Virus record (IMG/VR): IMGVR_UViG_3300025889_000452
Coordinates: 1-34,491 of that record
Direction: 5' to 3' (one strand)
DNA from: a virus
DNA: 34,491 nt
Position 1 is the first letter of the stretch, and every line of letters begins with the position of its first letter. A program made the translations under genes and the position numbers. A model generated the notes under the pieces. That model was not told where the DNA came from. It saw only the letters and a program-made list of their open reading frames with translations, and did no database searches. Below are positions 6,353 to 10,528 of the stretch, piece after piece.

Positions 6353-8848
6353 CTACACAATTCTGTTACCTAACAAAAATTTATATGCTTTTTTGTAGCC
6401 AGTACTCCGATCTCTTACCATCTCAACACCGATTTTTAGTATCAAAAAACCCTCATCAATAGCCTTTGAAAACCTCCTTATTGAGTACTCTTTTTTGTCA
6501 AATCCCGTAAAGTTTAAGAAGTCATTATATAGTTGTTCAAACTTAATTAATACACCCTCTTGGTCAACCAAAGTCTCAATGAATTCAAGGAACTCTTCAC
6601 CGAATTGTACCCTCACTTGTTTCTTGGCTAATTTGGCACTATTTTCTACCTCTGATATACCATTTTCAAGGTAATCTTGTACGCAGTTAAACATCAAATT
6701 ATAGAAGCGATTCCACTCATCTTTGTCCCAATCATCAAATAATTTATGCCCAAATTCATCCTCCGGTGTATGTTTTGGTGAGAAATATGGCGCAAATTCA
6801 AACACTTTTTGTCTCCTTTTCGCATGATTTCCGCTATTTGGTATGGTGTAATTGGTAGTAAAAATCACTTTTGGACTATCCTTATAAGGTATAAATAGCT
6901 CATCCTTATTTTTCTTTTCTACCGTTACGCCTTCAGTTATAATTGAATAAAAGCCTTCAAAGTCAACATTACGTCTTGTATCTTCAATAGCCAATAACTT
7001 AGTATCAAGATCAACTCTCTGAAATGCAAAATTTTTATCTACCTTAAAATTCTTACCGTCAACCCGAACAAGTTTAATAATATACCCCAAAGCCTTAACA
7101 AATATTCCTTTGCCAGTTCCTCCTCCCATTGCTTCGTTCTCTGTTTCTTCGGCTAATATTATTGCAAATGGTCGAGCTGGGTCTTTATACTTGTGTAATA
7201 AATAGCCAATAATGCCTAAGCAATATATAATACGTTCAACTTCACCATTGCATATTTTATCAATAAACTTATAATATTCCGAATGGTCAACTTTAAAATC
7301 ATTCTCAATTGTTATGTAATGATCAATCACTTGTGACTTCCATATAACTTTACCGAGTTCGCCGTATGACCTTAATTTTATGCCTTCTCTTGATATTTCA
7401 ACTACACCATTTATAAACGGGAAATAGCAAATCTCTTTGGTATCTTCCAAAAAGTCGAGCTTTACTCTATCAAAAAACTCAAAGAAATTATCACTAAAAT
7501 AATGCGATGATCCTTTGTAAACTACCTCCATGAGTGTCTGTGGATCGAGTCCATCATCAAATGACGATGGCAACCTATTTATATAATCCTTGATAAACTT
7601 TTTAATCATCTCGGTAGAACTCTCTTCTACCAATCCATCTTTTATTCGAATCAACCGATAAATAACGCTATTTGCATCATAAAAATAAAGGCTGAAGCCT
7701 CCAACGTCATGCAAAAATCTTTCTAATTTATCGAGTTTAATCTCGGCAGTTATTTTGCCATTCTTGATCTTAGCATCCCAAAACTCGCTGATCACATCAC
7801 CACTTTCATTTTCTAATTTCTCAACTATCTCAAGTGCTTCATTATAATTCTTATTATGCTTTTGAACCAAATAAGTTACTTGATCTTCTTTTGATACACT
7901 TTGTTTGCGTTTTTCAAATAACTCACGCTCTATTTTTTCGCCAAAGTTTTGCTTGCGTTCACCATAGCCTTGATCTAAGAGCGCCAACGCCGCTTTTTTG
8001 AAGTTTCCTCTATGCTCCAGGATGGCAAAGACGGCGCAAGGCTTATAGCCTTTTTGTACTTGAAACGGCGTATTCGTTGAGAATACGGAAAATAATCCCA
8101 TTTCGGTATTATAACTCCCACTATGCTCACTAATACCTCCTGGCCGCAAGAAGTAAATTCTAGTGCTTCCATTTTTAACCTTTTTCCATCCGTTGCGCTC
8201 CATGAGTTCGACAAAGTCGCACCTTTTGTTAAAGTCATCAAATGGCGAGAGTCCGTATTCCTTAGAAGAAGGCCGGTTATGAGCTTCAATGATTTCTTCG
8301 ACAATAACTTCGTTGAATGAACGCATAATTGCGAGTAACTCTTCCCGCTCCTCGATTGTAATAACATTGATGCCATCTTGGATGATTTCGTAGCCGAGTG
8401 AAGGCGGTGCGACCACATAGCCGCCTTGACCTCGGCTTTCAATGATGCAAAGTTCTTTATTGTGTGGATTTTCTTTAATCTCGCTATCATTCGCTTGTCG
8501 CATAGCGAGTTTTTGATTCCCTTCCACCACTTCGCACCGATAATAGAGATGATACCCTCCATTTCTAGTCTTGACGATATGCAGTTTAGTAAATATTCCC
8601 TTTGGTAGTCTCTCCTTAATAGCTTGCCATAAGTCATACGTCTGATATTTAGTGTCAACATCTATTACTTCCAAACCACCACTTATTGCTCCACATATCA
8701 CGGCTATTCCTTTTGCTCTTGCATCTGCCATTTGTTGATCCAATTCCGCTTGAGTTATCATTTCTTTTTGATAACGCTTCCAAGGATATATGGCTTGTTT
8801 ATTATCATTTATAGCAATAGTGTTGATACCTAGTTCTAAGTAATTCAT
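6353..8848 (-). CDS. Primase-polymerase / SF3 (D5-like) helicase
   Basis: The product is 831 aa with an ATG start. The N-terminal archaeo-eukaryotic primase domain shows D63-V-D65 (E-V-I-D-V-D), the basic strand K-T-R-N-G-G-Y-H100 and a third block S-R-G-Q-G-G-Y-V-V-A-P-P. A linker region (200-300) is followed by the superfamily 3 helicase: Walker A 575-582 (M-G-G-G-T-G-K-G), Walker B-like L-L-A-I-E-D-T at 618-624, sensor V-I-F-T-T-N-Y at 661-667 and an arginine-rich R-R-Q. The protein should prime and unwind phage DNA, making replication largely self-sufficient for initiation. It lies 3 bases downstream of the VRR-NUC gene. A long open frame inside its primase half (7975-8661) is treated as a shadow. 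Confidence 0.92.
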   Translation of the reverse strand: MNYLELGINTIAINDNKQAIYPWKRYQKEMITQAELDQQMADARAKGIAVICGAISGGLEVIDVDTKYQTYDLWQAIKERLPKGIFTKLHIVKTRNGGYHLYYRCEVVEGNQKLAMRQANDSEIKENPHNKELCIIESRGQGGYVVAPPSLGYEIIQDGINVITIEEREELLAIMRSFNEVIVEEIIEAHNRPSSKEYGLSPFDDFNKRCDFVELMERNGWKKVKNGSTRIYFLRPGGISEHSGSYNTEMGLFSVFSTNTPFQVQKGYKPCAVFAILEHRGNFKKAALALLDQGYGERKQNFGEKIERELFEKRKQSVSKEDQVTYLVQKHNKNYNEALEIVEKLENESGDVISEFWDAKIKNGKITAEIKLDKLERFLHDVGGFSLYFYDANSVIYRLIRIKDGLVEESSTEMIKKFIKDYINRLPSSFDDGLDPQTLMEVVYKGSSHYFSDNFFEFFDRVKLDFLEDTKEICYFPFINGVVEISREGIKLRSYGELGKVIWKSQVIDHYITIENDFKVDHSEYYKFIDKICNGEVERIIYCLGIIGYLLHKYKDPARPFAIILAEETENEAMGGGTGKGIFVKALGYIIKLVRVDGKNFKVDKNFAFQRVDLDTKLLAIEDTRRNVDFEGFYSIITEGVTVEKKNKDELFIPYKDSPKVIFTTNYTIPNSGNHAKRRQKVFEFAPYFSPKHTPEDEFGHKLFDDWDKDEWNRFYNLMFNCVQDYLENGISEVENSAKLAKKQVRVQFGEEFLEFIETLVDQEGVLIKFEQLYNDFLNFTGFDKKEYSIRRFSKAIDEGFLILKIGVEMVRDRSTGYKKAYKFLLGNRIV

Positions 8849-8851
8849 ACA

Positions 8852-9124
8852 TTAAAGTCCTTTATAACAAAATATATCAATATCTTCCACCGATCTTACA
8901 ACTTTGGCAAACACTTCATGTTTGTTTAGTTCTTCAATACGTTTGAGTTGTAGTGGTGCAACTATTCCTTTTTCTGTCTTTACTTCTAAAAATATTACTC
9001 TGCCTTTACGAATGCACATCAAGTCTGGTATGCCATTCATATTGGTTTGAATGAGCTTAATTACTGACCATCCGCTTTTCATTAATCTGTCTTTAATCTT
9101 CTTTTGCAATTCTGATTCTCTCAT
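8852..9124 (-). CDS. VRR-NUC domain nuclease
   Basis: The product is 90 aa. It is a minimal VRR-NUC (PD-(D/E)XK) fold: G-I-P-D34-L at the first catalytic strand, E47-V-K49 in the second, and the downstream P-L-Q-L-K-R helix. Stand-alone VRR-NUC proteins are common in phage replication modules and are thought to cut branched DNA structures. The start codon lies within the last codons of the methyltransferase gene (32-base overlap), so the two are probably translationally coupled. The primase-helicase follows directly. Confidence 0.9.
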   Translation of the reverse strand: MRESELQKKIKDRLMKSGWSVIKLIQTNMNGIPDLMCIRKGRVIFLEVKTEKGIVAPLQLKRIEELNKHEVFAKVVRSVEDIDIFCYKGL

Positions 9125-10109
9125 ATTCTTCTATTGTTTTAAATATTTGATAAGCTACTTGTGGGACTATTGCATTTCCTCCGGCTTTGATTGACTCGTT
9201 TCTCCATTTAGGAAAGGTAATATTGTCCAATCTGTCGGAAAGCCCATCATCTCCATTACAAATTGGGGAGACAGATGGGAACGATTCCCAGTAGTTTGAT
9301 ATCCCCACTCCGCTATTTCTTCTCCAAGATTGCTCTTTCCCCTGTCCATCAATGCGTGTCTGCTGTCCTGAGTTTTTGGTGTTGGTAACATCCCAGTTAT
9401 TAATAACTGATCCAATGTTGTTCCATATCTCGTGCCCGTTGTTTTGCTCCGATTCACTACTTTTCCATCTTCTATTGTCGGAGTTCTGTTGTTCGCTCTT
9501 GTTGTAGGAGTTGGTAAAAGATTGAATACTTGTGTCGCAAGATTTGGCATCGTTGTCCCATTCGGATATTTCTCCATTCTCGTTTTGAATTTCTGCAAGT
9601 CTTGTACTTCCTCTCTTGTTGTTGGAGTGAGCAACAAACCATATTCTATCTCTTCGGTGGGGAGCGTTGACGGAGCAAGCTGGCAATAGAAACGGGAATA
9701 CTTCGTACCCCTCAGCTTCCAAGTCAGATTGCACTTCGTGGAATACCAACCCTCCTGACCAATTAACAAGGCCGTAAACATTTTCGCCCACGATCCAACT
9801 TGGTTTAACCTCTCTAATTGTTCTAAGCATTTGCGGCCAGAGATGTCTCTCATCTTCTTTGCCAAGTCTGGCTCCTGCAAGGGAAAACGGCTGGCATGGG
9901 AATCCTCCGGTGAGGATGTCGATTTGTCCTCTGTGAACTGTAAAGTCTGTTGTACAAATGTTTTCATAACTGATTGCATTAGGCCAATAATGTTTTAATA
10001 CTTTCTGTCCAAATGAATTCCACTCACAATGGAATATATTTTCCCACCCCATCCATTCTGCGGCTAAATCAAATCCTCCAATACCACTAAATAGTGATCC
10101 ATGTGTCAT
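9093..10109 (-). CDS. DNA (cytosine-5) methyltransferase
   Basis: The product is 338 aa with an ATG start overlapping the upstream stop (ATGA). Conserved motifs are in order: motif I S-L-F-S-G-I-G-G-F-D-L (5-15), motif IV with the catalytic P71-C72-Q73, motif VI E109-N-V, motif VIII R-R-D-R (152-155) and motif X G-N-A-I-V-P-Q (near 311). It should methylate phage DNA, probably to evade host restriction. The target-recognition region (about 162-275) is unusually polar and rich in N, S, E and Q. The +1 frame across residues 44-314 stays open for 270 codons (separate entry), which may explain this composition. Confidence 0.95.
   Translation of the reverse strand: MTHGSLFSGIGGFDLAAEWMGWENIFHCEWNSFGQKVLKHYWPNAISYENICTTDFTVHRGQIDILTGGFPCQPFSLAGARLGKEDERHLWPQMLRTIREVKPSWIVGENVYGLVNWSGGLVFHEVQSDLEAEGYEVFPFLLPACSVNAPHRRDRIWFVAHSNNKRGSTRLAEIQNENGEISEWDNDAKSCDTSIQSFTNSYNKSEQQNSDNRRWKSSESEQNNGHEIWNNIGSVINNWDVTNTKNSGQQTRIDGQGKEQSWRRNSGVGISNYWESFPSVSPICNGDDGLSDRLDNITFPKWRNESIKAGGNAIVPQVAYQIFKTIEEYERIRIAKED
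9167..9979 (-). CDS. Overprinted 270-aa ORF in the +1 frame of the methyltransferase
   Basis: ATG at 9979 opens a frame of 270 codons lying wholly inside the methyltransferase gene, shifted by +1. Its product is not random-looking. It has three spaced repeats L-L-T-P-T (116-120), L-L-P-T-P-T (154-159) and M-L-P-T-P-K (198-202), a W-K-L-R-G-T-K-Y segment, and a C-terminal L-S-P-Q-F-V-M-E-M-M-G-F-P-T-D-W-T. From memory, proteins with L-P-T-P repeats and a G-F-P-x-x-W-T end are annotated elsewhere in phages as hypothetical or methyltransferase-related. It could be a genuine dual-coding gene or a conserved shadow created by the methyltransferase sequence. Frame and length are seen directly; expression is unproven. 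Confidence 0.45.
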   Translation of the reverse strand: MQSVMKTFVQQTLQFTEDKSTSSPEDSHASRFPLQEPDLAKKMRDISGRKCLEQLERLNQVGSWAKMFTALLIGQEGWYSTKCNLTWKLRGTKYSRFYCQLAPSTLPTEEIEYGLLLTPTTREEVQDLQKFKTRMEKYPNGTTMPNLATQVFNLLPTPTTRANNRTPTIEDGKVVNRSKTTGTRYGTTLDQLLITGMLPTPKTQDSRHALMDRGKSNLGEEIAEWGYQTTGNRSHLSPQFVMEMMGFPTDWTILPFLNGETSQSKPEEMQ

Positions 10110-10528
10110 ATTATCTGTATATGTTTATCCATGTAATCAATCAATAGTTGCGTTGGCATCATTACGCCACTTTCTACTTCCACATCAAATACAATATTCC
10201 AATCCTTTTCAACTAATGTATTCAAATGTATAAGTCCTTCGTAAAAATCTCCGGTCTCATACATTTGATATTCCTCGGTAAGTCTTGTTATGTCTTTTGA
10301 ACGCAAATCATCTCCAAATACTCGAAAAGTAATGATGATATGCAAGGCTTTAAAATTACCTCTTATCGCCGAAATTCCCTCATCCGATTTTACAATTTCA
10401 GCCTCCCAAAATATTTTTTTTGAGTTTTTATCTTCCCACCAGTCAATCTCGGTATTGGCCGGTAGTCCTAATTTATACGCAAGGTTCTCTATATCAATAG
10501 TGAATCCCTTCGAGATAAAGTTTTGCAT
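10106..10528 (-). CDS. Hypothetical 140-aa protein
   Basis: No family is recognised. The protein is acidic and soluble, with no signal peptide or membrane segment, and looks like a mixed alpha/beta fold (I-I-I-T-F-R-V-F-G-D-D, W-N-I-V-F-D-V-E-V). Its stop overlaps the methyltransferase start by 4 bases (ATGA), and its own start lies within the small membrane ORF at 10494-10658. It is therefore part of the early operon between the helicase and the methyltransferase; an accessory role in DNA metabolism or modification is only suggested by position. Confidence 0.75.
   Translation of the reverse strand: MQNFISKGFTIDIENLAYKLGLPANTEIDWWEDKNSKKIFWEAEIVKSDEGISAIRGNFKALHIIITFRVFGDDLRSKDITRLTEEYQMYETGDFYEGLIHLNTLVEKDWNIVFDVEVESGVMMPTQLLIDYMDKHIQII

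Follow-up and report, generated by a model that had tools for sequence, protein, structure and literature searches.

Does a long reading frame lying one base out of phase inside a viral cytosine methyltransferase gene encode a protein, and if so, what is that protein to the methyltransferase? The question arises from a viral contig (IMG/VR record IMGVR_UViG_3300025889_000452, positions 1 to 34,491; this whole 34,491-nucleotide stretch is called the window below) in which the minus-strand gene at 9093-10109, encoding a 338-aa protein (alpha), contains a second minus-strand ORF at 9167-9979. A preliminary description had reported the latter as a +1 frame open for 270 codons and overlapping most of the methyltransferase gene; the ORF was found as described, beginning with the ATG at 9979, offset one base forward and wholly nested within the methyltransferase ORF, and its 270-aa product is called beta here. 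Upstream lies a 140-aa ORF (10106-10528, minus strand) that matched no family; it overlaps the start of alpha by 4 bases and is probably translationally coupled to it through this overlap. Downstream, a VRR-NUC nuclease gene (8852-9124, minus strand; PF08774, E = 1.3e-7) overlaps the end of alpha by 32 bases. The neighbouring genes are of replication type, i.e., the VRR-NUC nuclease, a Prim-Pol primase, and a helicase, and no restriction enzyme was recognised among the neighbours searched.

The identity of alpha is clear from database and motif searches. It matches PF00145 (E = 4.6e-45 over residues 2-248) and phrog_363 (E = 1.5e-69), and the motifs typical of C5-cytosine methyltransferases, I, IV (PCQ), VI (ENV), and VIII, are present with invariant columns. 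Motif IV (GFPCQPFS, 9882-9905, minus strand), with the predicted catalytic cysteine Cys72, is invariant in alignment A2, and motif X (AGGNAIVPQ, 9159-9185, minus strand) is invariant or nearly so. In the same alignment, motifs I-VIII and motif X are separated by a variable polar linker (9264-9629, minus strand) rich in N, S, G, E, R, and K, and motif IX is absent.

The open +1 frame is not a product of chance. Its stop-free run in the window gene is 275 codons, whereas none of 20,000 synonymous-codon shuffles of that gene reached 270 (longest +1 run 237, mean 95). Among 100 non-redundant homologous genes the mean +1 run is 275 codons versus 105 in shuffled sequences, with seven genes having at least one of 200 shuffles that matched the observed run; the +2 frame shows no excess (43 codons observed versus 44 shuffled). 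So that the sample would not be biased toward open +1 frames, 80 viral loci were chosen by the methyltransferase protein alone, and all 80 have a +1 frame open for 213-336 codons, each with an MGFP motif, and a +2 frame open for only 23-74. Nearly all of 86 loci fetched by the +1 protein or from phage records carry an intact methyltransferase frame, and 339 viral-contig relatives of beta were found; aquatic viral contigs weigh heavily in the family sample, and the E-values of the locus finder are relative to the candidates only. The combination that would speak for a fortuitous frame, namely stops in relatives with no reduction of synonymous change, did not occur. The L-(P/T)-T-P repeats and the G-F-P-T-D-W-T end that had been remarked upon in the product are present, and the alignments show them to be family-wide.

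A further long +1 ORF was seen in the primase gene (6353-8848), where 228 codons are open at 7975-8661 (minus strand), a length reached by none of 1000 synonymous shuffles. A clade of close relatives (L364-L373, L403, L409, and L389-L390) keeps 216-295 codons of this frame open, and in many other relatives it contains 6-14 stops; the shift in substitution pattern is only slight, and the ORF is possibly a lineage-limited overlap or a chance event.

Codon choice indicates that the start of beta is selectively kept. An ATG in the +1 frame occurs at an alpha offset of 127-148 bases in 74 of the 100 non-redundant genes, through different codon solutions. In the window it lies at 9965-9967 (minus strand) and is silent in alpha (TAT GAA = Tyr-Glu). 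For Tyr before Glu (GAR), the ratio in favour of TAT is 20:0, but it is only 18:23 where the ATG is provided by the following codon, and NAT:NAC before G is 43:2 at the start site versus 386:395 elsewhere; the start-site tests gave p values of 8e-6 and 9e-11, the latter for NAT:NAC. While the ORF at 9167-9979 stands as first described, its start has to be moved: few family members share the upstream ATG at 9979, and the conserved ATG is the second one, so that the product is probably 266 aa in length (9167-9967). No Shine-Dalgarno sequence is evident before this ATG in the window.

The substitution pattern shows which frame is preserved in each part of the overlap. The suppression of synonymous change in the methyltransferase frame that had been named as a check is indeed seen: in codon alignments of relatives the share of substitutions at alpha positions 1/2/3 is.21/.10/.69 ahead of the overlap,.30/.17/.53 in the part with the catalytic motifs,.42/.29/.29 in the stretch of L-(P/T)-T-P repeats (9275-9637, minus strand; the recognition region, as explained below), and.27/.14/.59 beyond the overlap. 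Over the catalytic motifs the extra constraint from beta is modest (amino acid identity.63 versus.59 for +2); the N-terminal part of beta that lies over alpha motifs IV-VIII (9638-9967, minus strand) conserves W-Y-S-x-x-C-x-L-T-W-K in the columns of alignments A1/A3 and shows dual constraint at codon position 3. Since alpha position 1 is position 3 of the +1 frame, it is the +1 frame that is preserved in the recognition region, and amino acid identity there is.36 in the alpha frame,.49 in +1, and.33 in +2. The methyltransferase had been remarked upon as oddly polar at this place, as if constrained by a second frame; an LPTP-rich recognition frame read one base off gives the composition of the polar linker of alpha. 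The alpha frame across the recognition region has no stops in 97 genes versus approximately 4.8 per gene expected from beta-synonymous shuffles, which fits a stretch whose role is to let the ribosome reach motif X. On these patterns, +1 is the main coding frame in the recognition region, and the polar stretch of the methyltransferase is largely its out-of-frame shadow and the overprinted one. The existence of homologues, the conserved openness, the suppressed position-3 change, and the selected start codon together make a strong case that the methyltransferase is constrained by a second coding frame.

What, then, might beta be? It belongs to families A1/A3 and matches phrog_1008 over most of its length (E = 3.6e-18, residues 21-252 to 39-279 of 329), and no family was found for it in Pfam or NCBIfam. 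Near its C-terminus is the segment LSPQFVMEMMGFPTDWT (9224-9274, minus strand), followed by a short tail. Among the relatives are the single-chain enzymes L196, L290, and L296, which have an LPTP-type region and a LSPSFVELLMGFPLGW-type motif after motif VIII and before motif X, all in a single frame. PHROG 1008 matches these enzymes after motif VIII (residues 203-366 of L296, E = 9e-50; also L196 and L290), and the PF00145 alignment extends to residue 319 of L290, beyond LSPSFVELLMGFPLGW. The LSPQFVMEMMGFPTDWT segment aligns with L290 and L196 in hhalign, and profile alignment sets the beta region opposite RKLHPRECARVMGYPDSY of M.HhaI, with which it is co-linear, at a score below threshold as a separate domain. 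The direct profile match of beta to classical motif IX is weak, so the motif IX assignment rests on the single-chain intermediates and on co-linearity. With the corresponding segment fused in-frame between motifs VIII and X in the single-chain relatives, beta is best read as a recognition region plus motif IX; the pair thus covers both of the last two motifs, X in alpha and IX in beta. Beta therefore does not look like an unrelated gene but appears, on these sequence comparisons, to be the recognition/motif IX half of the same enzyme.

The predicted model of a single-chain form can be superposed on M.HhaI over its whole length (Z = 26), with low confidence in the recognition region. AlphaFold2 gave a poor model of beta alone (mean pLDDT 60), for which Foldseek returned nothing meaningful, and the beta profile had no match among PDB sequences even at E = 10. 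For a composite model, a mixed alpha/beta alignment (A4) was set aside on account of badly aligned recognition repeats and the natural single-chain alignment (A5) was used.

Among 333 loci (duplicates included), a motif-frame classifier assigned 243 to the nested form found here, 12 to a split form, and 32 to the single-chain form. In the split form, which includes Mycobacterium phages Goose, RedBird, Alma, and NiebruSaylor, alpha stops after motif VIII and an overlapping beta carries the recognition region together with motifs IX and X. RedBird (split; L297:1189-2266) and the viral contig L315:1501-2586 (single-chain) show no mismatch over their 1074 aligned bases and differ by a 12-base indel and a one-base indel in a run of C (CCCC/CCC) that shifts the second half in or out of frame. 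Phase variation or a frameshift polymorphism may lie behind the difference, or one of the two sequences may contain an error; both forms are also seen at other loci. On a tree built from motifs I-VIII, the three arrangements must have changed into one another at least eight times; its root is unsettled, so that the order single-chain to split to nested is only a proposal. We lean toward the view that this is a family with both halves of an enzyme in one DNA segment and two frames, whose single-chain, split, and nested forms interconvert by frameshifts, and that the overlap arose when an existing domain was shifted into another frame and its former frame became a linker, rather than by classical overprinting of a new protein.

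A further arrangement was found in Gordonia phage JKSyngboy (L292:789-1853), where the alpha frame holds motifs IX and X and the LPTP recognition region lies in a +1 frame that is open but ends ahead of motif IX.

The closest parallel among described enzymes is M.EcoHK31I, which has the specificity YGGCCR and requires both of its polypeptides for activity. Its beta polypeptide is reportedly encoded within the alpha gene in an alternative frame, as Lee, Kam and Shaw are said to have described in 1995. The larger polypeptide carries motifs I-VIII and X, the smaller one carries motif IX, and the predicted recognition domain has been assigned to the large subunit (PMC3404938). On this last point the window pair differs from the published enzyme: its recognition domain appears to lie in beta, where it is placed by the constraint in the beta frame and by the single-chain relatives, which read that frame. 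In other respects the window pair resembles M.EcoHK31I (and M.EaeI), likewise two-polypeptide C5-methyltransferases, as far as a comparison by description goes: a large subunit with motifs I-VIII and X but lacking IX, motif IX on the small subunit, and, in accord with the reported gene arrangement, the gene of the small subunit lying inside that of the large one in a different frame. On the best explanation of the locus, the window pair would work like M.EcoHK31I. M.AquI also consists of two chains, a catalytic half and a recognition/motif IX half, that make one enzyme (PMC3404938). It resembles the split relatives (Goose and RedBird). Its cut lies inside the variable region, with motif X on the same chain as IX, whereas the window pair keeps motif X on alpha and has nested genes.

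Taking the observed dual coding, the selection on the start codon, the partition of motifs, and the single-chain and split relatives together, we consider it very probable, on sequence grounds, that the locus encodes an overlapping two-subunit C5-methyltransferase with the target region and motif IX in beta, read from the same DNA. Alpha, in frame 0, would supply the catalytic domain, with motifs I-VIII, a flexible polar linker, and motif X folding back onto the domain. Internal initiation in the +1 frame at the ATG beginning at 9967 would produce beta as the small domain with the target-recognition region and motif IX. The two would then associate into a heterodimer, one active enzyme methylating a specific sequence, and this enzyme would most likely serve against restriction by shielding the phage DNA; the replication-type neighbours and the lack of a recognised restriction enzyme among them suggest such self-protection. 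The arrangement itself probably arose when an ordinary single-chain enzyme underwent two frame changes that offset each other and flanked its recognition region.

Other readings of the locus differ from this one in how beta is made and in what it does. Programmed ribosomal frameshifting could join alpha motifs I-VIII to the beta recognition region in one chain, with no independent initiation of beta, and it is true that a one-base change turns a split phage gene into a fused one and that single-chain forms occur naturally; yet the beta ATG approximately 140 bases into alpha is selectively kept, and alpha is kept open to motif X, which the frameshifted product would miss, making this route improbable. 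It is quite improbable, too, that alpha is a complete monomeric enzyme using the polar region as its recognition domain, with beta as an accessory. The placement of the predicted M.EcoHK31I recognition domain in the large subunit (PMC3404938) would favor it, but over the recognition region alpha changes in the manner of a shadow frame, mostly at its position 1 and with lower identity than beta (.36 versus.49), and alpha lacks motif IX.

Beta might instead be a real protein with a separate job, e.g., an inhibitor or regulator, unrelated to target recognition, as could be argued from its N-terminal half having no known counterpart, from the poor structure model, and from the lack of a curated family in Pfam or NCBIfam. 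We think this very unlikely given that the same segment is fused in-frame between motifs VIII and X in single-chain enzymes and that alpha is without motif IX yet keeps X. There remains the idea that the +1 frame is never translated and simply reflects base composition and the repetitive DTN/LPTP pattern of the DNA. Chance open +1 frames do arise in this type of gene, as in the seven genes noted above with a shuffle of the observed length, and the neighbouring primase has its 228-codon, lineage-limited +1 ORF without a clear signature; the universality of the open frame, the start-codon selection, the position-1-biased change, and the homologous in-frame copies contradict the idea and leave it a negligible probability.

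The family occurs in contigs of Bacteroidota, Bacillota, Pseudomonadota, Chloroflexota, and Planctomycetota. Sampling the class to which L227 belongs (L227 being a MAG labelled Burkholderiaceae) gave 13 positive genomes of 369, and sampling the phylum of L211 (Flavobacterium) gave 3 of 395; the nested form is also present on Salmonella and Enterobacter plasmids. The methyltransferases of such plasmids (L358:676-1710 and L360:703-1728) have a nested +1 ORF ending in QLNP..RWLMGLP/FP and may be closely related to the E. coli enzyme M.EcoHK31I; none of the E. coli records matches a gammaproteobacterial relative at the DNA level. On a Bacteroides finegoldii plasmid (L362:700-1791) the alpha frame has in-frame stops and beta is open, and RefSeq annotates only a fragment there, as a hypothetical protein. 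The end of a nested pair was also seen at L284:1-262, on a contig binned as Heimdallarchaeota that may be viral or mis-binned.

Both halves have been catalogued before under one name. PHROG 1008, which the window beta matches, and PHROG 363, which alpha matches, are both annotated as 'DNA methyltransferase', and our literature search found no statement that they are complementary halves from one DNA. Both frames are annotated in Paenibacillus phage Tadhana, and the gene lists of a 2018 survey of Paenibacillus larvae phages include two 'DNA-cytosine methyltransferase' genes without comment at that place. Our literature search found no paper describing a nested two-frame methyltransferase in phages.

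Outside eukaryotic viruses, few long overlaps on one strand are both conserved across phyla and functionally explicable, and the two frames here would be two parts of one machine. The nested arrangement is ancient and widespread, and since single-chain, split, and nested relatives all live today, the route by which such an overlap originates is open to direct study. The arrangement would also account for many phage proteins that are called 'hypothetical' or that bear the name 'DNA methyltransferase' twice over. Where an annotation pipeline does not allow genes to overlap, the putative specificity subunit is lost, and phage methylomes predicted in this way would miss the part that sets the target.
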